A stretch of 64,000 nucleotides of DNA from Haladaptatus caseinilyticus (GTDB lineage: Archaea > Halobacteriota > Halobacteria > Halobacteriales > Haladaptataceae). The stretch's first letter is position 1; each line of letters starts with the position of its first letter. The notes beneath the pieces were generated by a model, which did no database searches, was not told where the DNA came from, and saw only the letters and a list, made by a program, of their open reading frames with translations. The translations under genes and the position numbers were made by a program. The stretch is taken from contig NZ_CP111036.1 in NCBI RefSeq assembly GCF_026248685.1, positions 1,364,001-1,428,000 of the forward strand, given 5' to 3'. Below are positions 13,062 to 33,837 of the stretch, one piece after another.

Positions 13062-14801
13062 TCAGTCGTCCGCACTTGCCGTCGGTCGATTGGCGAACGC
13101 ATTTCTTGTCTCCGAAGAGAGCCGATTGACGATCGCTCGACCATCCCGCTCCCGCTCGATCAATCCGTCCGCTTCCAGTCGTTTTAGGTGGTGCGTAACG
13201 GTGCTTGGATCGCGTCCCAGTTCGTCGGCCAGTTCGCCACCGGAGGCTGGTTCCCTGCGGGCGACCGCATCGAGCACCGCCGCAGTCGGCCCGTCGGCTA
13301 ACGCGGCGGCCAGTTCGACTCCCTCGTCGTCGGGATAAAACCGGCGCTTGCCGCGCAATTTCGCTCCTGTTATCATCTTCTCTCGCTCCAACACCCGGAG
13401 ATGATGCCGAATCGTCGAGAGCGACACGCTCATCCGTTCGTCTAACTCCGAGAGGTACAACCCCGGCGTTCGCTCGATTCGAGCGAACAGGTCCTGCCGT
13501 ACCTCATGCTCCAACGGATCGGAATCGTCGTATCGGCTATATCGATACATCGTCATAAATCGCCAGAGTCGGGGGGTCCCCTTTCCCGTACTGACGGGTG
13601 CGACCGACGCCGCACCCGAGTTTATCGTCAGCGCGGTTACATCCGGGAGGTGACTGGCGACGCCCATTACGAGCGCTGCACCGGCAAGTCCCGCGGCTTC
13701 GACTGGTTTCGGAATCGATTCTTCCGACGGGTATCGCTGGCGTGCGTTCGTTTTCGACGGAGTCCCGTCGGCGCTATCCAGTTCACCGCCTGCGTCCGCC
13801 GTTTCATCCGTTGCTCCCAACGACTCACTGTCCGATTCCGTCCGCTTACCATCCGCTCTTGCGTCGCCTGTTTCACGCTGGTTTGCCGACGCGGGTTGTT
13901 GTCCGACTGTTTCCGCGGTCACTGCTTCGTTGCCGCTCTCTGCGACGCGTTCCTTTGCGGTTTCGGCTGCATTCGTGGCGCCGTCCATCCCCGACTTGGT
14001 ACGTCCCTGGCGCTGAATCCCTGTATCCGCCGTTTCATCGGTGTGGTCATCTCTCGACTTCGAGACCGTTTCCGCCCCGGCCGAATCCCTCTGACCAGTC
14101 GATGGAGCTGACTTTGGAACGTTTTTCGGCGTAGTCACACCCCCTTCGGGTGATGGCTGCTCGACCGCCCCGGTTCGGTCGTCGTCCGTTCGTGCCATCG
14201 CAGTCGTCTGACCTGCTTCGGGATCGGGGGAATCGACCGCACCGCTTGTTGTCGTGGCATCCTCGACGGACTCGCCCGTATTTCCGATGGGATTTCCAAT
14301 CGAAGCTTCCGTCGTTTCCGTGGTATTCGGGACGGATGGTCCGCCGTTGTTGGCTGTCCCATCAGTCGAGTTCGAACCGATATCGGTGACGCCGTCCCCG
14401 GAGTCCGTGATTTGATTTGTCCCGTCCGTCGGGTCGGAAACGGGTTCGGTCACGTCGTCGGTCGAATCCTCGGGCGTATCCGTAGTCGTATCAACACCGG
14501 TCGAAGGAGTGTCCGAAACGGTGTTCGTTGCGTCTCCGACCATACCACTGTTAGATTCCGCTGTCGTCGTCACTGGCGTCGGTGTCGTCGTTTTCGCACT
14601 CGTCGCAGCAACAGTCGTACTCGGGATCGTTTCGGCGCTCCCCGTCGCGGATATCGTTGTTGCCGATTCGGCACTCATGGTGTTCGTGCTGTCCAATGCC
14701 GCTCCGCTCGTCCCGCCACCCGGAATCGCAAGGGCCATGCTCGGCAAGCAAAGTAATGCGGCGAGCAGTACCACAACGGGCCGGTCGATAGATACGGCCA
14801 T
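13062..14801 (-). CDS. Membrane-anchored winged-helix regulator with long Ser/Thr-rich extracellular part
   Basis: The protein has 579 residues: a signal-type hydrophobic segment (about 5-26), roughly 330 residues rich in Thr, Ser, Glu, Asp and Gly with low complexity, a second hydrophobic helix (about 367-390), and two winged-helix domains (about 425-490 and 500-570). The helix-turn-helix parts include SLSTIRHHLRVLEREK and DPSTVTHHLKRLEADG, the ArsR/MarR-like family. The order implies an outer disordered stalk, one membrane pass and a cytosolic DNA-binding tail. This is an inference from sequence; haloarchaeal membrane-bound HTH proteins of this type are known but uncharacterised. It is divergent from the subtilase at 14940 with 138 bases between starts, so it may control the export operon. 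Low-complexity length may vary. Confidence 0.78.
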   Translation of the reverse strand: MAVSIDRPVVVLLAALLCLPSMALAIPGGGTSGAALDSTNTMSAESATTISATGSAETIPSTTVAATSAKTTTPTPVTTTAESNSGMVGDATNTVSDTPSTGVDTTTDTPEDSTDDVTEPVSDPTDGTNQITDSGDGVTDIGSNSTDGTANNGGPSVPNTTETTEASIGNPIGNTGESVEDATTTSGAVDSPDPEAGQTTAMARTDDDRTGAVEQPSPEGGVTTPKNVPKSAPSTGQRDSAGAETVSKSRDDHTDETADTGIQRQGRTKSGMDGATNAAETAKERVAESGNEAVTAETVGQQPASANQRETGDARADGKRTESDSESLGATDETADAGGELDSADGTPSKTNARQRYPSEESIPKPVEAAGLAGAALVMGVASHLPDVTALTINSGAASVAPVSTGKGTPRLWRFMTMYRYSRYDDSDPLEHEVRQDLFARIERTPGLYLSELDERMSVSLSTIRHHLRVLEREKMITGAKLRGKRRFYPDDEGVELAAALADGPTAAVLDAVARREPASGGELADELGRDPSTVTHHLKRLEADGLIERERDGRAIVNRLSSETRNAFANRPTASADD

Positions 14802-14939: not shown

Positions 14940-17741
14940 ATGGGAACAGAGCATTCTCAAGATGATTGTACTAATGAACTTTCTCGACGAACATTTCTCG
15001 CAGCGAGCGGCGCTCTCGCCGGAGCAGGCTTCCTCTCGACCGGCGATGTAACCGCGAATGGCTCGTTCGACGACCGATTTTCGAACTGGCGGGTGAGGGA
15101 AGCGACGCACGCATGGGACCGTGGTTATCGCGGTCGAACCGACCGAACGATCGGCTTGACCGACAGCGGCATCGATTCGCGTCATCCCGATCTCGGTCCG
15201 TGGAACGGCGTTCGAGCAGTCGCCCGCGACGGCGAACTTCTCATCACGAAGGACGCCCCCGACGCCGTCAACCGAGTCGAACTCACGACGTCGGAATCCT
15301 TCTCCGGCTCGATCGGCCCCGGTACGTTCGCCGCACCGGAGACGAAACGCCACGCCTTCGTCGTGCCCGACGGTGCGGACGAGATTCAGGCAACCTGCGC
15401 GTGGTCGCCGGAGAACGTCCAGGGCGAAGGCGAAGATCTCGAATTCTATATCGAAGACGCATCGGGGGAACGCGTCGCCAGCTCTGCAACCGCGGAAAAC
15501 CCTGAAACGCTCACGGTGGGTTTGACTCCCGGCAACGAGTATACGTTCGTCGTCGAAACGTACCTGAACGCCACCGCTGACTACGAAATCACGGGCGACT
15601 ACTATCGATATGAGGGGTCGCTTACGCCCTACAGTGGGAGTGTCTTCCCGTCAGGTAACGTGACCCCGGACACCCCGAAAGTCGTCGGCTGGTACGACTC
15701 CGGTAGTCGTTACGGAAGCTACGCCAAACCGCGGGACGAGAATGGCCACGGGACACACGTCACGTCCATCATGGCTGGCTCCGGTATCGCCAGCGCGGTT
15801 GACCCGGATACGGTAACCGAAGACGAACCCCAGACGACGTTGACACTCGGTGAGACGCTCTCCTACGAAGTCGATGCACGCCCGGACCGCGGCATTTTCG
15901 GCGGCGCATACGGCGACGGCATCGAAATCATCATCGAGGGCCCGAACGGACAGGAACTCGGCTCCTCGAAGGTGCTCTCGGATACGAGCGAGTGGGACAA
16001 CAACGTCGCGGAAGCCCATACCGTCCACCAGTCCGGTACCGCGACCTACACCGTCTACGTCCGCCCTGCGGAAGGCGAATCGGCCTCGACCGGGACCGTC
16101 GATTCCGTGAGCGTCGGCGCGTTCTTCGGTGAGGACGAGTCGGTCGGTGACCGACTCGCAAGTGGTGACCGTTCCGTCCACGCCGGGATCGCACCCAATT
16201 CGAGCGTCGTCGGATTACAGGGTCTCGGCGGTGCGACCGCCGACCTCGCACGACACGCCGAGACGTTTGCCGACCGGTTCAACATGCGTGTCGTCAACAT
16301 GTCGTGGGGGTACGTCGGCGGCGCACCACTCGGCGCGGCGGGGGGGCTGCTGGCCGAAGATCCATCGATTATCAAGGATATCGCGTCTGCGGGCATCCTC
16401 GTCTCCGCTGCCGCAGGTAACGCCGGAACGCCGGCCAACGGAAACGGTGCGCCGAACGTCGCCGACGAGACCATTTCGGTCGTGGCGACCGGCCCGCTCG
16501 ACGGTATCGCGGCGTACTCCAGCGGAGGTCTCGGAGCATACGACGAAGACTCGGACACGGTCTACCGCAAACCGGACGTAACCGCTCCCGGCGGAACCGT
16601 CACCGACCTCGCGCGGGCGGCGAAGAAAGGCATCGCCGCCGACCCCGAGAGCGAGCAGCCACCCATCCGTGATTACACGGGCAAAGCTGGCACGAGCATG
16701 GCCGCACCGTACGTCTCTGGGATTTCGGGACTCGTCGCGGAGGCGATGGAAAGCGACGACGCGCCGAGCGCGATTCGACTCTCGTCGCCGGATGATGCAG
16801 GGTTGGAGGACGTGTATCTGCTCAAACAGGCCATCCTCGCGACTGCCTCGGAAACCGCGTTCACTGCGGCACCCTACCATCGAACGGAGGGACCGACCTA
16901 CGATTTCGGTTCTCGTGACCCCTACGAGGGCTACGGTCGGGCCAACGTCGGAACGGCAATCGACGCCGTGTCCCGAGACATTACCGGTGTTTCGAGCGAC
17001 ACCATCGGGCTGAACGTCCCCGAAGACGAGCGCGCCTTCGCTGGCTACGTCGAAGCAGGGCCGGGAACCGTCGAAGTCGACGTGTCCTTCAGCCACCTGT
17101 CTGGCGGTAACAAGGGCATAGCGAAAGGTAACCCCCATATCGACCTGTTCGTGTACGACGCAGAAAATCCGTCCACGAACGGCGAACCGAACATCCTCGC
17201 TCGAACGCAGGGACTGACGGGAGACGCTTCCCTCACCGTCTCTCTCGGTCGGAACAGTGGCCAGAACGTGTTGTACGTCGTCGGCAAACTCGTCAACGTT
17301 CCCGGTGCCGTCAACGGCAACGACGTGCAGGCGCATTTCGACGTGAACGTGACGGCCAAGGACGGCTTCTTCGTGGATGGTACGCGCGAGAACGATGCCA
17401 CCGTCTTTACCGGCGGCCAGACGAACCAGGTGAACCTCTCGGTCGACCCGTCCGAAACTTCGCAGGTTCGCGACGTGGTGCCGACCGAGTGGACCGTTCT
17501 GACGGAATACTCCGACGATGTCGCTCGTGTCGAAGATGTGGGCGACGTACAGCACGTCTACTTCGAAAACGACGCGACCGCCGATCAGCAGACAGAGTTC
17601 ACCTACTTCGTTGAGGCACCCGACTCGCTGGCCGAATCCGGCGAATACACCTTCGGTTCCCTGCAAGTGAACCCCGGTTCGTCGTGGGTGGACGTGAGCG
17701 GAACGAACGACACGCTGGTTGTCGTCGGTGCCAGCTCATAA
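14940..17741 (+). CDS. Tat-exported subtilase (S8) with inserted beta domains and shared C-terminal module
   Basis: The protein has 933 residues. Tat signal: SRRTFLAASGALAGAGF at about 15-31. Peptidase S8 triad: Asp75 (TDSGIDSRHPDL), His270 (GHGTHVTS), Ser586 (GTSMAAPY), with the oxyanion Asn in AAAGNAGTP. Unlike its neighbours it has no inhibitor-type propeptide; the catalytic domain follows the signal almost at once. A PPC-like beta domain (FSGSIGPGTF..., about 120-220) sits between the Asp and His, and a second beta-sandwich between His and Ser. The last ~120 residues carry the FTGGQTNQV / VRDVVPTEWTV / FVEAPDS / YTFGS module shared through this operon. It should degrade proteins outside the cell. 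It is first gene of the row; the next starts 10 bases later. The start at 14940 is chosen because it places the Tat motif normally. Confidence 0.9.
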   Translation: MGTEHSQDDCTNELSRRTFLAASGALAGAGFLSTGDVTANGSFDDRFSNWRVREATHAWDRGYRGRTDRTIGLTDSGIDSRHPDLGPWNGVRAVARDGELLITKDAPDAVNRVELTTSESFSGSIGPGTFAAPETKRHAFVVPDGADEIQATCAWSPENVQGEGEDLEFYIEDASGERVASSATAENPETLTVGLTPGNEYTFVVETYLNATADYEITGDYYRYEGSLTPYSGSVFPSGNVTPDTPKVVGWYDSGSRYGSYAKPRDENGHGTHVTSIMAGSGIASAVDPDTVTEDEPQTTLTLGETLSYEVDARPDRGIFGGAYGDGIEIIIEGPNGQELGSSKVLSDTSEWDNNVAEAHTVHQSGTATYTVYVRPAEGESASTGTVDSVSVGAFFGEDESVGDRLASGDRSVHAGIAPNSSVVGLQGLGGATADLARHAETFADRFNMRVVNMSWGYVGGAPLGAAGGLLAEDPSIIKDIASAGILVSAAAGNAGTPANGNGAPNVADETISVVATGPLDGIAAYSSGGLGAYDEDSDTVYRKPDVTAPGGTVTDLARAAKKGIAADPESEQPPIRDYTGKAGTSMAAPYVSGISGLVAEAMESDDAPSAIRLSSPDDAGLEDVYLLKQAILATASETAFTAAPYHRTEGPTYDFGSRDPYEGYGRANVGTAIDAVSRDITGVSSDTIGLNVPEDERAFAGYVEAGPGTVEVDVSFSHLSGGNKGIAKGNPHIDLFVYDAENPSTNGEPNILARTQGLTGDASLTVSLGRNSGQNVLYVVGKLVNVPGAVNGNDVQAHFDVNVTAKDGFFVDGTRENDATVFTGGQTNQVNLSVDPSETSQVRDVVPTEWTVLTEYSDDVARVEDVGDVQHVYFENDATADQQTEFTYFVEAPDSLAESGEYTFGSLQVNPGSSWVDVSGTNDTLVVVGASS

Positions 17742-17751
17742 GGTGAGTATC

Positions 17752-19956
17752 ATGACAGAAAACCAACTTAGCAGACGGAACGTACTGAAAGCGACCGGCG
17801 TGCTGGGTGCGACAGCTGTCGCACCGTGGACGACGAGCGCTGCGACGGTAGACGACGCGCTGGACACGTCCGGTGGACTTCAAGAAGTCCTCGTTGTCTT
17901 CGAAACGAACGACGACGTCGACCACCTTCGCCGCCTCAACCTCGCCGAGGGCTACTACAAGTTCTCGGTCCTCCCGATTGGCTACAGCCTGCTCACGGGC
18001 GGCCAAATCGAGACGGTCGCGTCGTGGAGCGACGTGCGGGCTGTGCAGAAGAACGTCGAACTGGAGTATCACAACGACGACGCCCGCGAGACGACCGGTG
18101 TATCGACGGTACAAGAGGAGCGATTCTACACCGGTGAGAGCGTCCACGCGGTCGCCATCGACTCCGGAGTCGATGGCGACCATCCGGACCTCGAAAACAA
18201 CCTGCAACACAACTTCCGATTCGTTGATCCCCTCGACAGGGAGACGATGTGGGTCGATGCCGGTCCCGCCGACACCGCGAGTATGGGTCACGGCACGCAC
18301 GTCAGTGGTTCCATCGCGGGCGACGGGACGAAGAGTGACGGTGCCTATCGCGGGATGGCACCGGACGCCGATCTCACCGTTTACTCGACTGATGCGGTCG
18401 CCGCCCTGCTCCAAGTCGTCGGTGCGTACGACGACATGATAGACCGACAGCGCGCCGGGAAACACGACGTACAAGTCGTGAACAACTCCTACGGACCGTC
18501 CAGCGGGAACGACGCCGATTACAATCCGAACGGCGCGCTCGAGGTTGCGACATGGATGGCGTTCGAGGAGGGCATTCTCCCGGTGTTCTCGGCGGGCAAC
18601 TCCGGTCCGGATACGAACACGCTAAGCAACTACGCCAAGGGACCACACATCCTCGCTTCCGCCGCCACCGATGACCACATGACGGTCACTGATTTCTCCT
18701 CCCGGGGGCGAAAACCCGGCTACGACGGTGGTGGCGAGGGGGCACAGTACGACCGCGAGGCTGCCTACGCTAACCTCCGGGACTTGTACGCGAAAGGATA
18801 CGAGAACAGACCGGTCGTCGGCGAGACGACCTACTCCGGCACGGTTGGTCCCGGCGTAACCGACAGTACGACCGGAGTCTCGGCGGGCGAGAGTGTCTAC
18901 GAGGAATGGGTCGCTCCCGACGACGCGGGGTATGTCGAGATAACCGTTTCGTGGACGCCACAAGGTGAGGACGTGGACGTGTATCTCCACGAGGGGGCAG
19001 AAGACGGCCCCGTCGTCGCCAGTGGAGCATCCCTCAACAATCCGGAGGAACTTGCAGGTACCATCTCGCCGGGGACAACCTACTACCTCGAACTGAAGCC
19101 GTACACCGTCGTCGTGGCGGATTACTCTGCTGACGTGACCGCTCGAAAAGCGCTCCCGGCGGGAGAGCGACCGTCCGGTCCGTACGGCCTCTACCGAACC
19201 AGCGTCGGAACGCCCGGTGATTTGGTCATGAGTACGCTTGCACCCGACGACCCGCTGCAGACGTATCCCACCGGTTTCGCGGGACGACCGGAACAACAAG
19301 GAACTGACGTGTGGTACGGTCGGCTCTCGGGAACGAGTATGTCCGGTCCGGTACTGGCTGGAATCGTCGCGCTCGTCTACGACGCCTATTACCAGACTCA
19401 CGGCGAGTTCCCCGACCCCATGGACGCTATCAACCTCGTGGAGGCCACTGCCCACGATGCCCGGGACGACCACGCGCCGTGGAACATCGGGGCCGGATTC
19501 GCGGATGCGGACGCTGCCGTCGCCCTTGCGGAATCGGGCGACGTTCCGTCCTTCGACGATGTATCGCTCGCGGTCGATGGAAAAACGACTGATCCCGTCT
19601 TCACTGCTGACGGCACGCGAGCGGACGATGGCAGTACGTTCACGGCCGGGCAGACGAATCGGGTCGATGTGACAGTCGATTCGGCCAGCGAGCAGGTGGC
19701 CGTTCGTGATCGGGTTCCGTTCGATTGGGACGTGGTCGGCGGCGACGCACACACCGTCTATACCGACGACGGTGCACGGTACGTCGAGTTCACCGACCCG
19801 GCGTCGGTGGGCGAGACGCGAACCTACTTCATCGAGGCACCGGATTCGACCGGCCAGTACGAGTTCGGCCCGGCGGAAGCGCGTCCTGCTGATGCTGGCG
19901 CGTTCCGGACGCTGACCGGGAGCGAGGCGAACACCGTCGTCGGGGAGCAAACCTGA
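17752..19956 (+). CDS. Tat-exported subtilase (S8) with propeptide, PPC insert and shared C-terminal module
   Basis: The protein has 734 residues. Tat signal LSRRNVLKATGVLGATAV; then an I9-like propeptide (about 43-115, LQEVLVVFETND to VELEYHNDDARE) that would inhibit and fold the enzyme. Triad Asp137 (AIDSGVDGDHPDL), His180 (GHGTHVSG), Ser529 (GTSMSGPV); oxyanion Asn in VFSAGNSGP. A PPC-like beta domain (YSGTVGPGVTD...) is inserted before the serine. The C-terminal module starts near residue 616 (FTAGQTNRVDVTV) and ends TVVGEQT. GGTGAG, a Shine-Dalgarno-like sequence, lies 5 bases before the ATG at 17752, which decides the start over an upstream frame. The gene is 10 bases after the previous one, so the two are co-transcribed. 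Confidence 0.9.
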   Translation: MTENQLSRRNVLKATGVLGATAVAPWTTSAATVDDALDTSGGLQEVLVVFETNDDVDHLRRLNLAEGYYKFSVLPIGYSLLTGGQIETVASWSDVRAVQKNVELEYHNDDARETTGVSTVQEERFYTGESVHAVAIDSGVDGDHPDLENNLQHNFRFVDPLDRETMWVDAGPADTASMGHGTHVSGSIAGDGTKSDGAYRGMAPDADLTVYSTDAVAALLQVVGAYDDMIDRQRAGKHDVQVVNNSYGPSSGNDADYNPNGALEVATWMAFEEGILPVFSAGNSGPDTNTLSNYAKGPHILASAATDDHMTVTDFSSRGRKPGYDGGGEGAQYDREAAYANLRDLYAKGYENRPVVGETTYSGTVGPGVTDSTTGVSAGESVYEEWVAPDDAGYVEITVSWTPQGEDVDVYLHEGAEDGPVVASGASLNNPEELAGTISPGTTYYLELKPYTVVVADYSADVTARKALPAGERPSGPYGLYRTSVGTPGDLVMSTLAPDDPLQTYPTGFAGRPEQQGTDVWYGRLSGTSMSGPVLAGIVALVYDAYYQTHGEFPDPMDAINLVEATAHDARDDHAPWNIGAGFADADAAVALAESGDVPSFDDVSLAVDGKTTDPVFTADGTRADDGSTFTAGQTNRVDVTVDSASEQVAVRDRVPFDWDVVGGDAHTVYTDDGARYVEFTDPASVGETRTYFIEAPDSTGQYEFGPAEARPADAGAFRTLTGSEANTVVGEQT

Positions 19957-19966
19957 GGTGAGCGAG

Positions 19967-22198
19967 ATGACGGAACCTCCATTCCCCGGACTCGACCGTC
20001 GAACCGTCCTTCGCGGCGTCGGTGCCGTCGCGGCCGGGTCGATGCTCACCCATCCTGTGCAGGCGAGTTCCGAGACGACCATCATCGACGACGAACTCGA
20101 CCTCTCGACTCCAGGCCCCCACGAAGTGCTCGTCGTCTTCGACGCGCGTGAATCGATGGATCGGTTAACCGACCTCGACCTCCCGAAAGGGAAACACGAG
20201 TACTCCGTGCTTCCCATCACTTACACGGCGCTGTCGAGCGATGCGATTCGCACCGCAGCCGGATGGGATGACGTTCGTCGGATCCGGAAGGCCGTCGAAC
20301 TGGCGTATCACAACGACGACTCACGCGATGCGATGGGCGTCGATGTAGTCCAGCAAGAACTCGGCTACGACGGGTCGAGTGTCGATGCTGTCGTCATCGA
20401 TTCCGGGTTCAGCGGGCCGCATCCGGACTTCGAGGGCCGACTCGAATCCAACTGGCAGTGGGTGGACAACCCGCTCGGGACGCGGGACCCCGACTGGCTG
20501 AACCTCGGTGCGGAGGGCGATACCGACGACTTGGGCCACGGCACCCACTGCGCCGGGATCGTCGCGGGTGACGGTTCGGCCAGCGACGGGAGATACAAAG
20601 GCATGGCTCCCGGGGCGCGCCTCTCGGTCTACTCGGTGAATCAGGCGGTCTACCTGCCGTACGTGGTGGGTGCGTGGGATCATGTGCTTTCCCGCGCGGA
20701 CGACCCAAACGACGACTTCGACCCGGCAGTCGTTTCGAACTCCTACGGTGTCGCCCGGGACGTTCGATACAATCCGAACGATCCGGTGAACATCGCTACG
20801 TGGGAGGCGTTCGTCCGGGGCATCGTTCCGGTGTTCTCGGCGGGTAACAGCGGCCCGGAGGCCGACACGCTTTCGCGCTTCGCCAAGGCACCACACGTCC
20901 TCTGTGTGAGCGCGACTCGCGACGACAAACACGTTACGGGCTTTTCATCGCGGGGTCGAACCCCGGACGAGAATCGAGAAACCAACTACGACCGCAAGAA
21001 GGCACTCTGGAACCTCGTCCGTTTCCACGCCGCGATGACCGACTGGCAGTATGTCGTTGATGTCGGGACGTGGGAAGGGACGGTCGGCCCCGCCGCGGAT
21101 AATGGGACGGCTGGCACCGACGCATCGACGGAAAGCGAGTTCCACGAATGGAACTCCCCGCCGAACGCGGACACGTTGGAACTCGCGCTCGATGTCACGC
21201 CCGAAGGTGAGCAGGTGCGGGTTTCCATTCGTGAGGGAAGCAAGGACGGAACCGTCATTGCACAGATGGGCGAAGAACCCGTCCATCAACACCGGACACT
21301 GACGACCGACATAGACGGTGGGACGACCTACTGGGTCGAGGTCGAGCCGATGATTTCAGTCGCCGTCGAGTACACCCTCGACTACGAATCTCACGAAACG
21401 GTTCCCGGCGAACCGGTGAAACAGCGACCGGTCGGTCTCTATCGTTCGTCGGTAGGCACACCCGGCGACATGGTGATGAGCACGCTCGGACCGACTGACC
21501 CACTCGATGCCTATGGAGCTGACACTGAACCCTACTACGGGCCGATGAGTGGCACCTCGATGTCCTGTCCGGCCGCCGCAGGCGTCTGTACCCTCATCAT
21601 CGATGCGGCCCGAAAGAACGGTCATGACCCATCCCCCATCGACGTCATCAACACTATCGAGGCGACTGCCCGTGACGTTCACAAAAGCTACACGCCGTGG
21701 AACATCGGCTCCGGCTTCGTCGATGCTCTGTCCGCCGTGAAGCGTGCCGAGTCAGGCGATTTCGCACGATTTAGCGAGACGACGCTTACAGACCCCGATA
21801 CGCCGACAGCGCTCACGGTGACCGGTTCGCGCTCGGACGACGGGTCGGCGTTCACCGGTGGCCAGACGGATCAGGTGGACATCTCCGTACGTTCCGTATC
21901 GTACGTCGCGACAGTGCGCGATACGATTCCGGCCGAATGGACCGTCGATGCCGACTACGGCGACGTGGAGCGCGTCGAAACTGCAGGTGACGTAAAACAC
22001 GTCTTCCTCGGGTCGGTCGCACCGACAGACGGTGAGGTAACTCGTACCTACTTCGCGGAAGCACCGGACGACACGAGCGACACCGGCCAATACACGTTCG
22101 GCCCGGCCGAAGCCGAGTCGGCGAAGACGGACGACGATTGGATCGCATTCGGCGGGACGGAAACGAACACGGTCGTCGGCGAGGATTCGAACGCCTGA
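19967..22198 (+). CDS. Tat-exported subtilase (S8), paralogue of the preceding gene
   Basis: The protein has 743 residues and the same plan as its neighbour: Tat signal LDRRTVLRGVGAVAAGSML, propeptide (HEVLVVFDARES to ELAYHNDDSRD), triad Asp145 (VIDSGFSGPHPDF), His191 (GHGTHCAG), Ser531 (GTSMSCPA), oxyanion Asn (VFSAGNSGPE), and an inserted PPC-like domain (WEGTVGPAADNG...). The module is at about 612-743 (FTGGQTDQVDISV, VRDTIPAEWTV, YFAEAPDD, YTFGPAE). The start ATG at 19967 is preceded by GAGGTGAGCGAG, giving the same ribosome-binding layout as the gene before; an alternative GTG at 19958 lies inside that signal and is unlikely. Clear sequence likeness to the previous gene points to tandem duplication. 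Confidence 0.9.
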   Translation: MTEPPFPGLDRRTVLRGVGAVAAGSMLTHPVQASSETTIIDDELDLSTPGPHEVLVVFDARESMDRLTDLDLPKGKHEYSVLPITYTALSSDAIRTAAGWDDVRRIRKAVELAYHNDDSRDAMGVDVVQQELGYDGSSVDAVVIDSGFSGPHPDFEGRLESNWQWVDNPLGTRDPDWLNLGAEGDTDDLGHGTHCAGIVAGDGSASDGRYKGMAPGARLSVYSVNQAVYLPYVVGAWDHVLSRADDPNDDFDPAVVSNSYGVARDVRYNPNDPVNIATWEAFVRGIVPVFSAGNSGPEADTLSRFAKAPHVLCVSATRDDKHVTGFSSRGRTPDENRETNYDRKKALWNLVRFHAAMTDWQYVVDVGTWEGTVGPAADNGTAGTDASTESEFHEWNSPPNADTLELALDVTPEGEQVRVSIREGSKDGTVIAQMGEEPVHQHRTLTTDIDGGTTYWVEVEPMISVAVEYTLDYESHETVPGEPVKQRPVGLYRSSVGTPGDMVMSTLGPTDPLDAYGADTEPYYGPMSGTSMSCPAAAGVCTLIIDAARKNGHDPSPIDVINTIEATARDVHKSYTPWNIGSGFVDALSAVKRAESGDFARFSETTLTDPDTPTALTVTGSRSDDGSAFTGGQTDQVDISVRSVSYVATVRDTIPAEWTVDADYGDVERVETAGDVKHVFLGSVAPTDGEVTRTYFAEAPDDTSDTGQYTFGPAEAESAKTDDDWIAFGGTETNTVVGEDSNA

Positions 22199-22250
22199 TG
22201 TAAAAACTACCAACAACCAAACTAAGATTTAAACTTCTTCATATCTAATT

Positions 22251-22597
22251 ATGGTTGATGATGGTATGCGCTTGAATAACATCGATCGTAGAACAGTCCT
22301 TCAGTGCTCGACACAACGAGATTCAGGGCGCTTGCGGCCGATGCGGCAACGGCGGTCACCGCTACAACTGACACTCGTTTCGACGCTGATAGGACGTCCG
22401 TCTACTTTACGCAGACTGTATTCGAAGATCGCCGGACGGGATATACCTGCTTCGCGGAAACGCCGTCCACCGCAGCAAAGGCGAACAGCTACTCGTTCGG
22501 CCCAGTTCGGGGCTACCCCACTGACGGTCCTGTGTGGGTCGGCGCTACCGGGTCAACGAACGAAACCACCGTTCTTGCCGTTTCGACTACCACATGA
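22251..22597 (+). pseudogene. Remnant of a Tat-exported protein carrying the shared module
   Basis: The beginning (MRLNNIDRRTVLQCST) is a Tat signal start like that of the preceding gene. Within about 60 bases the frame is lost, and from about 22320 another frame reads VYFTQTVFEDRRTGYTCFAE, then YSFGPVRGY and TTVLAVSTTT. That is the second half of the C-terminal module (compare TRTYFIEAP, YEFGPAE, NTVVGE). The whole catalytic part is missing, so an internal deletion and frameshift have left the two ends. A TTTAAAC box at 22228 stands before it. Its last codon overlaps the start of the carboxypeptidase gene by ATGA, so the original reading order of the operon is still visible. Confidence 0.7.
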
Positions 22598-25500
22598 CAA
22601 ACGAAAATTCATCGTTCGATAGCACAGGTATCACACGACGCGACTTCGCACGACTCGCAACCGCGACGACGGGCGCACTCGCACTTCCCGGTGCGGCGGA
22701 GGCGAAACTGACATCGGGGAAGATGACCGCCCGCTACCAGTATACCGTCAACCATACTGAGGACAAGTACGCTGTCGCAACACTCATCGAATTCACGAGT
22801 GATGCAGGCTTCGGCGACCTCGACACGCTCGATGTCGAGTACCGACGGACGACGAACCCCAAACCGGCTGCACACGCTCATCTCACGACGGCTGAGGTCG
22901 GCGATGTCCTCGACATCCCTGCAGCAGAACGACTTAGTCACTCACCCGGGTCGAACCCGTTCTGGCGGCTCGGCGAGTATCCGCTGGGTGTCTTCCCGGA
23001 ACCCAAGGAGTCCACTGGGTTCATCGACTACGAGCAGATGGTCGATGGTCTCGAGCACCTCGAATCGCAGCATCCCGACCGGCTGAAGTTCTACTCAATC
23101 GGGGAATCTCCCGGGCACTACAACTACGTCACCGGCGAGGACGACCCGAAGGACATCCACGTCGCCGAGCTGACCAACAACGTCAACGACGCGGCGTCGT
23201 TCGAGGGCAAGGAGAAGGTGATGTTCAGCCTCTCGCTGCATGGCCTCGAACGCGCCGGTGCGGAGGCCGGATCGCGGTTCATCGAGGACGTCCTCTCCGG
23301 CGAGGACAGCGATATCGCCGACTTGCTCGACGACCTGGTCATCGTTTTCGTCTATTCGAACGCCGACGGTTGGGTCGCCAAGCATCCACAGTACGAGAGC
23401 GGTTGGCAGCTGCTCGGTCCGGAGGGCGGTGCGCCCGTCGTCCCGTTCTACGAGCGGGGCAACGACGGCGTTTACGACACGAATCGGCAGGCACCGTCGG
23501 TGGGTTTCATCAACCCTGGCCATTACCCGGGTGAGCCGTTAGGCGCGAACCTCACGGACGACGAACCCGGCATCGACAGTGACGTTCCCGACTATGCCGC
23601 CGAACGCGTCCCCGACCAGATGGCCATTATCGAGCACTTCCGGGAGTACGAGAACCTCAACTACGGCGCCGACCTCCACGGGGCGCTGACCTCCTCGAAG
23701 TTCGTGCTCGGCCTCATCAGCCAGGACCAGTTCGACCACGGCCAACTACATGAACTCTACCAGTTCAACCGTACCATCGACGAGACCCTCGAACCGGCGC
23801 TCTCGAAGTGGAACACGCTGGCGGACGCTCAGCAGCGACTCACCGGCGAGCTGAACCCGAAAGCGCTCGGCTTCGAAACGCTCCCCGAGCAGGCGTTCGA
23901 TTACGCCGGAATCTGGGACACCATCCACTACACCGTCTCGGGGGGCGTCCTCGATTGGATGAGTCATCCCGAGGAGCTCGGCGGTCTCGGGATGACGACG
24001 ATGGACTTCGAAATGGCATACTCGCACATGATCGGGTCGAACGTCTACGACCCGGAACTCGTCGATATGCAAGTGTTGGGATAACGACACTGCCATCAAA
24101 ACCATCTCACAGTACGTCACCGAGACCACGACGGCGGATATCGAGACCGGCGGTGCCTCCACCGCGTACGTCACCTCGGATGCGCTGACGCGTTCGTCGT
24201 CCGAACTCTCGTTCGTCGAAAACCCCGGCACGGGTTTCGTCGAGATGGACGAGGACGAGCACTTCGAGGGGACGCTCGGTCCCGGAACGACAGCCACGCC
24301 TGCCTACGCTCGCCACGAATTCACGGCCGTCGCGGACGCCGACCGCCTCGAAGCCAGTCTCTCGTGGACGCCACCCGGACAAGACCTCGAGTTCTATGTC
24401 GAGGATACGGACGGCAACCGCGTCGCCGTCTCGGCGACGGGCGATAACCCTGAAACCATACAGATGAGCGCCGAGGCCGGACAGACCTATACGTTCATCG
24501 CCGAGACGTACGCCAACGCGGCAGCCGACTACAGCATCGACGCGACCTACTTCACCTACGGTCAGAAGGAGACGAGTCGCGAGATGGACGAGCAGTCCTC
24601 GCTCCTCGGCCCCGACGAGGTAACGGAGTTCTACCGGAGCGTCCGCGAGGACGTGGACTCCCTTTCGGTGTCGATGGCCTCTCAGCCCGGCACCATGCAT
24701 GCCGTGACGCTGACGAATCCGAACGGTGACGTGGTCCGCAGTCACGATCCGACCGTCGGCAAGGGTGGTGCGAACGCCGCCGTCGGTACCCCCGAATTCG
24801 TCGTCCGTAATCCCGCTGCGGGCGAGTGGACCGTCGAGGTTCGGAACCTGATGGCGTCGAAGCGGGCGGGCACGAAGGTCCAATTCGGTACCCTGCAGAG
24901 TGACGAGGCGAACCCCGATCCCGTCGACGCACTGGGCTATCAGCAGCGCGACTATGACGTGTCTCCGTTCGCCTTCTTCGAGGATTACGCCGCTTTCGCC
25001 GACGCACCCGTGGACGCGCTCACGGTCGCCGACGTGAAGGCCGGTGCCCACCTCGGCTACGACAACCTCGTCGTCATTCACGACGACGCCATCAGCGACG
25101 CTTCGTACATCGATTCGCTCGACGACTTCGTCGCCGCCGACGGTAACCTCGTCCTCACCGACGACGGCGTCCGTCTGCTCGCCCCGATGGACAACGAGTA
25201 CGCCACCGATATCGCGGACCCGGATATCGGCCACGAACGGTTCTACATCGCCCATCTCGAACAGCGATATCCCGGTCACGAACTGTTGGAAGGGACCCGT
25301 CCCATCCAGAAACAGCTCTGGAAGATCGTCCCGATGGGCTATTCGACGAGCAACGAGGCCCCGATGCGTCTCGTGAACCGTGACGCCTTCGACGCCGCCG
25401 GGGGTACCATCGCCGGCGAGACGGCCGGGAAGGTGAGCGCGGGGTCGCTCACCGGCGGCCGTAGCGACGGTACCGGAATCCACGTCATCGGAAGCCTGCT

Positions 25501-26035
25501 CCCCCCAGCGAACCAAGGGAACCTTCACCCGTTCGGCCTGCTGGACTACACCGTCTCGTTCTTGGGTCACACCATGCTGACGAACGCGCTCGGATACCAG
25601 CAGACCCGCTACGTCAACGGACAACAGGTTTCGACGTTTGGCGACATCGACTCGTTCAGCGTGGATCCCTCCGTGACCGCGACGCGCGACGACGACGGTG
25701 ACCTGTTCACCGGCGGTCAGACGAATCAAATCGACATCGCGGTTAGCGGGAACGCCGATGTTCTCGTCCGCGACCGTCTACCCAGCGAGTGGTCCGTCGT
25801 CGGTGGCGATGCTCACACTACTCACGTCGAAGACGACACACGGTTCGTGGAGTTCACCGAGTCGGTCGAAGACGGCACTCGAACCTACCTCGCGGAAGCA
25901 CCGTCGTCATTGGCCGGGACACAGACGTACGAATTCGGTCCGATAGAGTACAGTCTCGACGGCGGACAGAACTGGATAGCGATTCCGGACACGACGGACA
26001 GAAACAACGTACTCGGCGCGGATACGAGCCTCTGA
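22594..26035 (+). pseudogene. Tat-exported M14 zinc carboxypeptidase, split by frameshift, with PPC and shared modules
   Basis: Two frames form one protein of about 1145 residues. Part 1 (22594-24084, 496 aa) has a Tat signal (ITRRDFARLATATTGALAL) and an M14 zinc carboxypeptidase domain: zinc ligands His216 and Glu219 in HGLERAGAE, His362 in GADLHGALTS, and a likely catalytic Glu473 in MDFEMAYSH. Its stop at 24082 is premature: the +1 frame continues without break as NDTAIKTISQYVTETTTADI and on through PPC (FEGTLGPGTTATP...), a beta/alpha region and the shared module (FTGGQTNQIDIAV, VRDRLPSEWSV, YLAEAPSS, YEFGPIEYS). One extra base near 24076 explains the break. A separate ATG at 24245 exists but has no signal peptide. 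Part 1 alone could still be exported and active without its tail. Confidence 0.85.
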
Positions 26036-26063
26036 AACGCACGACAACACACACCTACCAACC

Positions 26064-28007
26064 ATGTCAGACGACACAGCACACGATATCGACAGTACGG
26101 CTAGCTCCAACCACTTCGACCGACGGCGATTCCTCCGCCTTTCGGCCACTACGTCCGGTGCGCTCGCGTTCGGCGCTGGCCGTTCCAGCGCCCACAGTTA
26201 TGGCGACGGTTCCGGAACCCAGGCGAGCGGCAGTCACGACCACACGAATCCATCGATCCACCAGCAATCGGAGCGAGCGGAGCTGCTCGATTACCACAGC
26301 CTCGGAGGCGTCGGCGCGTCGAGCAACAGCGGCCGACCTGAGGACCCCCATTACGGCGCGATTACTGAACTCCACGTTCACGGCGACTACGCATACGCCG
26401 GTATCTTCTCGTCGGACGACCCAACGAACGACCGCGGGATGGCGATTCTCGATATTCACCAGTTCAACGACGCCGAAACGCTAGCGGAAGCGCGCGATGC
26501 CGAACTCTCCGTGCTCGGATTCGTCCGGAACGACGACCCGGCATCCGCCGTGATGGATATCCGAATCAGCGACGACGGGAAGTACGTCTTTCTGTCGAAA
26601 CAGCCCTACACTGCGCTGTTCAACGAAACGGACCCGACACCGGGAACCGACGGCGGTTCGAACGACCCGACTGCCGGGTCGGTCGTCGCAGTGAACGTCG
26701 AGGATCCCGGAAACCCCAGCGTCGTCGGTTCGTACAACGGCTGGTCCACCGGGTCGCACAACACCAGTTATCACCGTATCGATGGCGAGGAGTACCTCTT
26801 CGCGTGCAAGGACCTAAATGATGGCACAGCGGGGCTGTACGTTCTTCAGTTCGATCGGACGACGGGACAGCTCACTCTCGTAAATCGATGGACAGCGAGC
26901 GGGGCCACTGGTGGGTTGGATTACATCCACGACATCACGGTTCAAAACGACCCCAGGACCGGAACTCCGACGGGGTATCTCTCCTACTGGGACAATGGCC
27001 TCCGTATTCTCGATCTCTCCGACCCGACGAACATCGTCGAACTCTCCGTCTTCGAAATGAACTCGGCACACTTCGCAGAACCTGCACCGACGCTTCTCGA
27101 CGGTAAACGCGTCGTCGTCGTCGGACAGGAAATTCCCAGCGTCGAGAACGGATCGAGCGGCAAGCTCTATTTGCTCGACGCGGACGGCATTGAGGATGGT
27201 GAAAGCCCGGCCCAACTGGACATGTGGGAATGGAAAACCAACACCACGTTCGACAACTTCACGCTCAGTCCGCACAACTTCGACGTGACTGAAGACGGAT
27301 GGGTACATCTCGGACATTACCACGGTGGAATCCGCTTCCTCGACATCGACACCGACGGTTGGTTGCTCCGTGAAGACGGCTTTTATCTTCCAAACCAGAA
27401 CGTTCCAGAAGAGTCGAAGATGCAGGGCTTGAACGAGGCGACTCCGTTTACGTGGTGTGCGGTCGAGCAGAACGGCGTCACCTACGCCGCCGACATCAAC
27501 ACCGGAGTGTACGCGGTTCACCACGATTTCGTTCCCCTCAGAAACGATTCCGGCTCGGACATCCACGTCACTGCCGAGCGAAGCGACGATGGGTCTAGCT
27601 TCACTGGTGGGCAAACCGACCAAATCGATATCACCATCGCTGCAGACGAGTCAGTTCGCGTCCGCGACAGACTTCCGCGCGAATGGGGGATCGTCACGGG
27701 TGACCCGCACCAGACGTACATCGAAGGCGGCGATCGATATATCGAATTCGACGGTAGGGTCGAAGGAAACGACCGAACCTATCTCGTTGAGGCTCCGAAC
27801 GGGGTGGACGAAACGGGCACATACGCGTTCGGCCCGATCGAGTATAGCCTGGACGGCGATACGTGGTATCCACTACCGGGAACGACGGAAGAGAACTCGG
27901 TAGTCGCGGCCAGTACGGCGGGTGTGCTCGGAGTCGCCATAACCGGGAGCGGACTCTATCGATTCCGTTCGAAGCTGAGCGAACTGCTCGGCGACGAGAA
28001 ACAATAG
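26064..28007 (+). CDS. Tat-exported LVIVD-type beta-propeller protein with shared module and C-terminal membrane helix
   Basis: The protein has 647 residues. Tat signal FDRRRFLRLSATTSGALAFG; a short His/Ser-rich stretch; then a beta-propeller built from LVIVD-like repeats (GMAILDIHQFND, VVAVNVEDPGNPSVVGSY, LRILDLSDPTNIVELSVF, IRFLDIDTDGW) spanning about 80-495. No catalytic motif is seen, so it probably binds or scaffolds. The shared module lies at about 505-615 (FTGGQTDQIDITI, VRDRLPREWGI, YLVEAPN, YAFGPIEYSLDG). Unlike the peptidases, it then has a hydrophobic segment (VVAASTAGVLGVAITGSGLY) and a basic end (RFRSKLSELLGDEKQ), consistent with membrane anchoring. It begins 28 bases after the carboxypeptidase and closes the row. 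Confidence 0.82.
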   Translation: MSDDTAHDIDSTASSNHFDRRRFLRLSATTSGALAFGAGRSSAHSYGDGSGTQASGSHDHTNPSIHQQSERAELLDYHSLGGVGASSNSGRPEDPHYGAITELHVHGDYAYAGIFSSDDPTNDRGMAILDIHQFNDAETLAEARDAELSVLGFVRNDDPASAVMDIRISDDGKYVFLSKQPYTALFNETDPTPGTDGGSNDPTAGSVVAVNVEDPGNPSVVGSYNGWSTGSHNTSYHRIDGEEYLFACKDLNDGTAGLYVLQFDRTTGQLTLVNRWTASGATGGLDYIHDITVQNDPRTGTPTGYLSYWDNGLRILDLSDPTNIVELSVFEMNSAHFAEPAPTLLDGKRVVVVGQEIPSVENGSSGKLYLLDADGIEDGESPAQLDMWEWKTNTTFDNFTLSPHNFDVTEDGWVHLGHYHGGIRFLDIDTDGWLLREDGFYLPNQNVPEESKMQGLNEATPFTWCAVEQNGVTYAADINTGVYAVHHDFVPLRNDSGSDIHVTAERSDDGSSFTGGQTDQIDITIAADESVRVRDRLPREWGIVTGDPHQTYIEGGDRYIEFDGRVEGNDRTYLVEAPNGVDETGTYAFGPIEYSLDGDTWYPLPGTTEENSVVAASTAGVLGVAITGSGLYRFRSKLSELLGDEKQ

Positions 28008-31618: not shown

Positions 31619-33052
31619 TCAGTAGTTTACGAGGTTCACGTCGCTGTACGTCCCCATGTTCCCGTTCTCCGCACGAGTCACGGCGGACTGGGCGTTCACG
31701 AACCCGGAGCCGATGTTCCACGGCGTGTAGCTACTGAGTGCGTCCTCGGCTTCCGCCGAGACGGTATTCAGCAACTCGGCGGGCGTCGGCGACCCGCTGT
31801 TGTTCCGTCGGTACGCATCGACGACGAGCGTGGCAATTCCGGCCACTGCCGGACAGGCCATGCTCGTTCCGCTGATGCTGGCGTACCATAAGTCGGTGTC
31901 GCCGCCCGAAACGTTGAGCGGGTCGGTCGGGTCCATCGTACTGACGATGGCGTTGCCGGGCGCGCCGACGCCGGGTCGGTAGACGCCGAGCGGGCCGGAC
32001 GGTGACCCACCGTTTCGGTACTGCTCCAAGTTGTCGAGGGCCGTCTTGCGGTCCCAATTGCTCGGGTCCGCGCTCTGTTTCCGCCCGCGCGAAGAGAAGT
32101 TTGTGACCTTCTTGTTGTCTTTCGTTGCGGCGACGCCAAGCACGTTCGGTGCTTTGGCATACTGGTTGAGCGTGTTCGTCTGCGGTCCGGAGTTCCCTGC
32201 CGCGAACACTGGGAGGAGGCCCTGTGTCCACGCTTCCCACGTGGCAACGTTCAGTGCATCGTCCGGGTTAAACGCCTCGCCGTTCGAGGAACCGTAAGAG
32301 TTCGAGACGATGGAGATGTCTGTTTCACCCGCCTGCTGACGCGCGAGCAGGTGGTCGAACGCCGCGACCGGTTTCACGATGAGTAGGGTCAGCCCCGCCG
32401 AGTAGACGGTGAGGTCGGCGTCCGGTGCCATCCCCCTGTACTGGCCGTCGCTCTGCGTTCCATCACCTGCGACGGTGCCGGAACAGTGTGTTCCGTGTCC
32501 GTTGTCGTCGGTGTCCAAGTCACCGGCACGAACCCACAATGTCGGTGAGCCGAGCGGGTTACCTGCCCACCGCCAGTTCGCGACGAGACTCGAATCGAGG
32601 TCGGGATGATCGCCGTCCACACCCGAGTCGATAACTGCGGTGTGAACGCCGTCTCCCGTGTAGCCACTCGATTGGACTTCGGAAACCTGCGTTACCTCCC
32701 GTGTGTCGTCGTTGTAGTAGTCGAGTTCGACGTTCTTCTGGACGTACCGGACGGAATCCCAGTTGGCAACCGTGTTCAACTGACCGACCGATAGCTCGGT
32801 GTAGCCGATTGGGAGTACCTCGAACTTGTGGTAACCGTTCGTGAGATCTAGCGTGTCCAACAGATCGACATCGTCGTTGCTGTCGAATACGACGAGGGAT
32901 TGCTGTAGCGCATTCGTCGCGAGGTCGAACGCACTGTCAATAATCCCCTCACCCGCACTCGCAGTCCCGCTAAATGGTATTGCCGACGCGACCGCTGCCG
33001 CGCCAGTTGCTTTCAGGAATCGCCGCCTACCTTGTGGTTGGTTGTCAACCAT
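31619..33052 (-). CDS. Tat-exported halolysin-like subtilase without C-terminal module
   Basis: The protein has 477 residues. Tat signal GRRRFLKATGAAAVASAIPF; propeptide (LQQSLVVFDSNDD to VELDYYNDDTRE); S8 triad Asp142 (VIDSGVDGDHPDL), His186 (GHGTHCSG), Ser397 (GTSMACPA), oxyanion Asn287 (VFAAGNSGPQ). It is closely related to the two propeptide-bearing subtilases at 17752 and 19967, but has no PPC-like insert before the serine and no shared C-terminal module: it ends SAVTRAENGNMGTYSDVNLVNY, where those proteins go on. It is on the opposite strand and has its own AT-rich promoter (ATTACATCTAATAAAC). It is the only subtilase here free of the module. Confidence 0.92.
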   Translation of the reverse strand: MVDNQPQGRRRFLKATGAAAVASAIPFSGTASAGEGIIDSAFDLATNALQQSLVVFDSNDDVDLLDTLDLTNGYHKFEVLPIGYTELSVGQLNTVANWDSVRYVQKNVELDYYNDDTREVTQVSEVQSSGYTGDGVHTAVIDSGVDGDHPDLDSSLVANWRWAGNPLGSPTLWVRAGDLDTDDNGHGTHCSGTVAGDGTQSDGQYRGMAPDADLTVYSAGLTLLIVKPVAAFDHLLARQQAGETDISIVSNSYGSSNGEAFNPDDALNVATWEAWTQGLLPVFAAGNSGPQTNTLNQYAKAPNVLGVAATKDNKKVTNFSSRGRKQSADPSNWDRKTALDNLEQYRNGGSPSGPLGVYRPGVGAPGNAIVSTMDPTDPLNVSGGDTDLWYASISGTSMACPAVAGIATLVVDAYRRNNSGSPTPAELLNTVSAEAEDALSSYTPWNIGSGFVNAQSAVTRAENGNMGTYSDVNLVNY

Positions 33053-33166: not shown

Positions 33167-33658
33167 TTATGGTATCGGCTCGGTATTCTCGCCCTGATAA
33201 TCGCCGTCGTAGGTTTCCTCGTGATTCGCCTCACTGAGGACGAGTTGTGCGATTCGTGCTCCTCGTTCGAGTTCGATGTCGTGATGGACTTGAAGTAGTC
33301 CCTCGCCTTTGCCTTCGTAGCCTGCATCCCACACCGCGGTGTTGAGCATGCAGGAGTTGCGCATGAGCGACGACCGCGGGTAGATGTAACCGACGTGTCC
33401 GTCCGGAATTCGAACCGTTTCGCCGTACTGGACGATGTATGCGCCTCTCGGGAGGTAGTACGTTTCCGGAACGTTTTCGCCGACCTGCTCCGATTCGATC
33501 CGTTGACGGTCGCCGATCTCCTTTTCCTCTCGGCCGATTCGACCGGAATCACGCTGTTCGTAAACGACTTCCAGTGTCAGATCGACCCCGTTGGGCTGAA
33601 TCTGCTCATCTGTGGTTTCCGCAATGTGCTCTGCAACGAACGTTCCACTCCGGAACAT
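33167..33658 (-). CDS. dut: dUTPase/dCTP deaminase-family nucleotide hydrolase
   Basis: The protein has 163 residues of the dUTPase trimer fold. Family motifs: PNGVDLTL (motif near residue 23), VGYIYPRSSLMRNSCMLNTAV (nucleotide-binding serine and uracil pocket), WDAGYEGKGEGLLQVHH and RIAQLVLSEA. It resembles archaeal dUTPases annotated dut or dcd, which remove dUTP to dUMP and pyrophosphate, or deaminate dCTP. The PRSSLMRN segment and GYEG loop are in both groups; the lack of a typical dCTP-deaminase catalytic Glu pattern could not be checked by eye. It is divergent from aconitase. The C-terminus is acidic and polar. Confidence 0.85.
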   Translation of the reverse strand: MFRSGTFVAEHIAETTDEQIQPNGVDLTLEVVYEQRDSGRIGREEKEIGDRQRIESEQVGENVPETYYLPRGAYIVQYGETVRIPDGHVGYIYPRSSLMRNSCMLNTAVWDAGYEGKGEGLLQVHHDIELERGARIAQLVLSEANHEETYDGDYQGENTEPIP

Positions 33659-33804
33659 ACACCTCCTTCAGTTCTACCCGTAAAAATCGTGTCGAATCAT
33701 TGGCTCGGTTGTTCCTTGTTGGCACACTTTTGCCCCTGTTTTCGAAAGAATTGCCACACCAGATGCGGATTTACCACGATTGATGAAAAATGAAACGCGC
33801 GGGA

Positions 33805-33810
33805 TTTATA
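33805..33810 (+). promoter_or_regulatory. TATA box of the aconitase gene
   Basis: TTTATA (in GGGATTTATAACTCC) begins 33 bases before the ATG of acn at 33838. At this spacing transcription would start near the ATG, giving a leaderless or nearly leaderless mRNA, usual for haloarchaea. Confidence 0.6.
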
Positions 33811-33837
33811 ACTCCGGAGAGTCGATATCCGTCCGAT

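Follow-up and report, generated by a model that had tools for sequence, protein, structure and literature searches.

An Ig-like C-terminal module shared by exported enzymes of haloarchaea, with a proposed role in extracellular tethering

What can a single C-terminal module do for exported proteins whose catalytic folds have nothing in common? The question is raised by a stretch of 64,000 nucleotides from Haladaptatus caseinilyticus (contig NZ_CP111036.1, positions 1,364,001 to 1,428,000; the window, numbered from its first letter). A sequence-only reading had claimed that five exported proteins encoded in the window share a C-terminal module of about 120 residues, and this was borne out: pairwise identities are 33-54% with BLASTP E values of about 1e-19 to 1e-43, and a MAFFT alignment of the five copies has 22 invariant columns. 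The motifs quoted in that reading were found in the window modules, and the module starts it gave were correct to within about 40 bases.

The five proteins are encoded in a row on the forward strand. The first, S8A (14940-17741; PF00082, E 5e-30; DSG, HGTH and GTSM motifs), is a Tat-type subtilase with a PPC-like domain (15297-15662) inserted between the catalytic Asp and His, and it carries module copy 1 at its C-terminus (17361-17738; alignment and HMM, E 4.9e-50). The Tat-type subtilase S8B (17752-19956; PF00082, E 3e-29) has its PPC-like domain within the catalytic domain, between His and Ser (18829-19164), and ends in module copy 2 (19594-19953; alignment and HMM, E 1.1e-50). A second subtilase of the S8B type, S8C (19967-22198; PF00082, E 3e-28), is built in the same manner, with the PPC-like domain at 21068-21403, also between His and Ser, and C-terminal module copy 3 at 21806-22195 (alignment and HMM, E 2.4e-49). 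Then come the catalytic part of an M14 zinc carboxypeptidase with a Tat signal (22594-24084; PF00246, E 2e-10) and, in the +1 frame, the remainder of that protein (24085-26035), which holds a PPC-like domain (24260-24574) and module copy 4 (25661-26032; alignment and HMM, E 3.9e-56). The last is a Tat-type, LVIVD/choice-of-anchor-B-like β-propeller protein (26064-28007; PF08309, E 1e-4; TIGR04312, E 1e-8), in which module copy 5 (27555-27914; alignment and HMM, E 2.4e-56) lies between the propeller, as modelled by AlphaFold2, and a C-terminal tail. The statement that all five proteins end with the module needs correcting for the propeller protein, which continues for 30 residues more (27915-28004). 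On the opposite strand, the cluster is adjoined by the gene of a putatively secreted protein in which a long Ser/Thr-rich region is joined to winged-helix-like C-terminal domains (13062-14801), and dCTP-deaminase-like and aconitase genes (33167-35817) flank it. The latter two families are each found beside module clusters in 6 genomes elsewhere, a hint that the site of insertion may be a common one.

The carboxypeptidase had been described as one protein with the module. This is the case in relatives but not in the window, where the catalytic ORF stops at 24084 and the module-bearing ORF is open from 24032 to 26032 in another frame. In tblastn, an intact homologue of 1126 residues (L010) follows the catalytic ORF as far as about 24,087 and, beyond about 24,650, the ORF in the next frame. 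As relatives encode one protein and the intact homologue crosses frames, the window copy is either frameshifted near 24,080 (24,070-24,090) or affected by a sequence error there. Searching the entire genome (4.8 Mb) with the profile returned only the five window modules and a half copy on the forward strand at 22370-22585 (profile positions 53-122, E 1e-7). The half copy sits in a 101-codon ORF in the otherwise non-coding gap between S8C and the carboxypeptidase, is closest to the M14 and S8A modules of relatives, and is probably what is left of a module-bearing gene that has since been lost.

The PPC-like domain is a second domain common to S8A, S8B, S8C and the carboxypeptidase (105-122 residues, 27-48% identity, E 6e-7 to 8e-34), with a point of insertion that differs between S8A and the other two subtilases. 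It bears on the argument that the module is not needed for catalysis because a fourth subtilase does without it. That enzyme, S8D, is of the S8B type (31619-33052, reverse strand; PF00082, E 1e-33) and indeed has no module. As it also lacks the PPC-like domain, it differs by more than the module and makes no clean control. Module-less homologues of the carriers do exist, as described below, and support the view that the basic enzyme architecture can do without the module.

To which family does the module belong? None of the models in Pfam or NCBIfam covers it, in line with the sequence-only reading, which did not recognise it as a named family; only scattered weak matches, for instance to DUF11, NPCBM_assoc and BatD, were obtained among 60 members. 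With Pfam DUF11 (PF01345) itself, none of the 60 modules reached the gathering cut-off and one matched at all (E 0.048). No related sequence was found in the PDB, no match to a cohesin profile or to the type IX secretion C-terminal domain models of the curated Pfam and NCBIfam sets, no match in phages, and no description of the module in the open-licence literature. The proposed Ig-like β-sandwich was supported by structure prediction: AlphaFold2, run with the 60 sequences, gave a β-sandwich with a pLDDT of 93-98 over the module. Foldseek ranked the crystal structure of a CLIPPER (DUF11) domain first in the PDB (9ifr; E 1.2e-6, TM 0.63 by target length), followed by cohesins, TRAP-α and integrin calf domains, and in a library of viral structures a DUF11 protein ranked second. 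The model has the CnaA-like/E-set Ig fold of DUF11/CLIPPER domains, with 9ifr as its best match. In a profile-profile comparison with hhalign, the module matched 21 haloarchaeal DUF11 domains over its full length with a score of 49; as controls, the PPC-like domain reached 11.7, 40 column-shuffled profiles no more than 14.5 and the profile in reverse 21.9. The module profile also matches, with E values of 1e-5 to 7e-11, tandem repeats in proteins exported by other members of the Halobacteriota (L323-L326), and two of these proteins (L323 and L324) pass the DUF11 cut-off, making them intermediate sequences. On the strength of the Foldseek ranking, the profile-profile score above the controls and these intermediates, the module belongs, as judged from profiles and a predicted fold, to the DUF11/CLIPPER superfamily, within which it forms a divergent branch. 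In fold, it is not wholly new.

In CLIPPER domains an isopeptide bond is formed by Lys, Asp and Asn (PMC12617251). The equivalent positions of the module, matched by eye, are occupied by Arg in 57, Asp in 55 and Asn in 41 of the 60 copies, the Asp being that of the VRDxxP motif; Lys makes up 0.9% of all module residues. With Arg where the Lys of CLIPPER would be, the bond was considered and rejected for the module, in which it is unlikely to form. Six polar residues (R9, D11, D12, Q20, T21 and D38) are kept in 92-100% of the 60 copies, whatever the partner enzyme, which suggests a predicted site that is the module's own.

A genome scan with strict peptide patterns gave 53 loci, all haloarchaeal. 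The profile search proposed with the sequence-only reading placed the module in 41 of 391 Halobacteria genomes, three of them marginal (G266, G334 and G367, with E values above 1e-4), and in 24 of 86 genera; two genomes without it come from genera that have it. With at most 10 candidates scored in each genome, counts per genome in this search are lower bounds, and many genomes have only one module (for example G022 and G056, at least one each). Plasmids of Haladaptatus and Halocatena also carry it, and their records name the catalytic part only. In a survey of 98 clusters and the earlier loci, 220 module ORFs with 198 distinct modules were collected. None of the 220 has two copies, the module is C-terminal with few exceptions, and nearly all copies are followed by at most 5 residues before the ORF ends. 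By single-linkage clustering and Pfam, the carriers were assigned to S8A-type subtilases (58), LVIVD propellers (33), S8B-type subtilases (29), M14 carboxypeptidases (28), S15 X-Pro dipeptidyl-peptidases (17), calcineurin-like/purple acid phosphatases (11), with a small number of further types. A Tat-type signal was detected heuristically in 154 of 177 long carriers, as against 82 of 343 neighbouring ORFs.

Homologues that lack the module stop exactly at its N-terminal boundary, as was seen for about 25 M14, about 20 S8B-type and several LVIVD proteins. All S8A homologues found keep it; for S15, a search of 242 genomes with L047 as the query gave no homologue at 1e-50. A tree of 146 module rows, built by a quick method from few columns and with many forks unresolved, requires 25 changes of carrier class, where the minimum is 5 and the mean after shuffling 87; in one starred group, modules from S8A, M14 and S15 proteins stand together. 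The tree thus tracks carrier class much more closely than chance would give, yet well short of perfectly, and is most simply explained by repeated capture of the module or its exchange between carriers. The boundary seen in module-less homologues and the roughly 25 carrier changes together mark the module, on comparative grounds, as a portable add-on. Where an S8C-type subtilase gene adjoins an LVIVD gene, the module is present on both in five cases, on neither in three and on one in a single mixed case (Fisher p 0.048, with categories chosen post hoc and phylogeny ignored). A strict all-or-none gain on such neighbours is suggestive only.

The main exception to ending at the module is the LVIVD class, in which about half of the copies (15 of 33; a filter gave 17, two of which, L107 and L139, are of another type on inspection) have an extra tail in which a stretch of 13-23 uncharged, Gly/Ala-rich residues precedes a basic helix. 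In the window protein the tail (27918-28004) comprises a 14-residue stretch of this kind and a basic amphipathic helix, and its pLDDT is about 50-58. The stretch is short and weakly hydrophobic; membrane insertion is possible, and the tail might serve as a membrane anchor. It was rejected as the general anchor of the module: it occurs almost only on LVIVD proteins and is kept by those that lack the module (L194 and L010). One of the latter, encoded on a plasmid of Haladaptatus pallidirubidus (L010, 10238-11575), has an early frame disruption and adjoins three module-bearing enzymes. The LVIVD propeller proteins contain eight or more invariant His residues, and the best PDB match of the window model is the phosphotriesterase propeller of Sphingobium (5hrm); a role as metalloenzymes, and not simply as propellers for binding, is therefore possible.

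The C-terminal position, the portability, the export route and the partner-independent polar conservation all speak for a function that belongs to the module itself and is exerted outside the cell. The reading favoured here, tentatively and from comparative sequence data, is that it is a DUF11/CLIPPER-like tethering (docking) domain that haloarchaea have added to the C-termini of exported hydrolases. Enzyme and module would leave the cell folded, through the Tat pathway, after which the module would project from the end of the enzyme and hold it at a common extracellular place. Candidates for this place are the cell envelope, its matrix and a complex held together by contacts between modules, and endopeptidases, carboxypeptidase, dipeptidyl-peptidase and phosphoesterase could then act side by side. 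The following observations count against such tethering. Firstly, no gene family fit to be a receptor recurs within about 5 kb on each side of the module clusters (ORFs filtered by codon GC), where the module-less subtilase of the S8D type is the commonest neighbour (18 genomes), followed by a receiver-domain-like regulator (11 genomes). Secondly, the many genomes with a single module show that a complex of many enzymes is not required. Thirdly, H. pallidirubidus (L010) has modules on three enzymes and none on its propeller protein. Fourthly, the likeness of the fold to cohesins, taken up below, is weak.

Binding of a substrate or of some insoluble polymer, a task that accessory domains perform in many secreted hydrolases, is a rather unlikely role for the module, yet one worth weighing. 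Its carriers are hydrolases that act outside the cell and have the PPC-like domain in common as well, and chitin- and cellulose-binding domains (2cwr and 3ndy) are among the Foldseek matches. These matches are weak and generic, however, and a single substrate is hard to name for enzymes that act on chemistries as different as peptides and phosphate esters. That the module serves the folding or salt stability of its own protein, like the C-terminal extension of halolysins, is likewise improbable. For the haloarchaeal subtilase SptA, a strong loss of activity is reported upon removal of the C-terminal extension (PMC3158780), and the retention of the module by every S8A homologue found would fit such a role. 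A private folding aid is hard to reconcile with one module on at least six unrelated folds, with S8B-, M14- and LVIVD-type homologues that exist without it, and with polar residues that are conserved irrespective of the partner enzyme. A tag by which a dedicated machine recognises proteins for export or sorting, as in type IX secretion cargo, would suit an Ig-like C-terminal domain common to unrelated cargo, once per protein, and with a patchy distribution (41 of the 391 genomes), but it is very doubtful given the Tat-type signals already on the carriers, the residues that follow the module in about half of the LVIVD copies, and the finding that no machine gene recurs within about 5 kb of the clusters. 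The data also lend no support to a sortase or pilus dedicated to the module: no sortase-, surface- or pilus-like gene and no secretion gene recurs in these flanks.

The module offers a direct handle on how haloarchaea, with their many Tat-exported folded proteins, keep enzymes near the cell, a matter that is poorly known. A bolder and quite unlikely extension of it is an address-tag system for Tat-exported enzymes, in which a genome that owns a putative receptor would copy the module between neighbouring exported genes and so gather unrelated enzymes on the cell surface as one assembly; if true, this would parallel, in archaea, the type IX cargo domains or the cellulosomes. Irrespective of function, an unnamed portable C-terminal domain occurs in about one-tenth of the haloarchaeal genomes, on exported proteins of six or more kinds, and a family definition could serve to annotate many proteins whose present names go no further than "S8 family serine peptidase" or "M14 family metallopeptidase".

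Several known systems resemble the module in part. In type IX secretion, one Ig-like C-terminal domain is present on many kinds of exported enzymes. The resemblance is one of working logic only, and that system belongs to another phylum. Cohesins of Archaeoglobus (2xdh) and Clostridium (2vo8) have a similar sandwich (E 2e-5 to 1e-4), but at a TM of about 0.5 and 11-13% identity this is a weak likeness of fold only, common to many Ig-like domains, and no dockerin partner is known for the module. Archaeosortase CTERM signals consist of a short motif, a transmembrane helix and a basic end, whereas the module is a folded domain after which most copies end directly; the LVIVD tail has the uncharged stretch and basic end of such signals without a named CTERM motif. 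The DUF11/bMG10-like repeats of L323-L326 have D-x-x-P-x-G-W, TYxYxVxVP and YxF motifs in common with the module; unlike it, they mostly occur as 2-6 tandem copies in non-enzymatic, surface-like proteins, one of which terminates in a PGF-CTERM-like anchor, a point in favour of the tethering reading. With DUF11/CLIPPER (PF01345; 9ifr) the module shares the fold and a full-length profile match, and its Arg in place of Lys is set in a family where the Lys-Asp-Asn triad is not universal. The module can be regarded as a new branch of this known Ig-like superfamily, with a function proposed from sequence and model and an unusual use: where DUF11/CLIPPER domains form tandem stalks, the module stands as one copy at the C-terminus of an enzyme.
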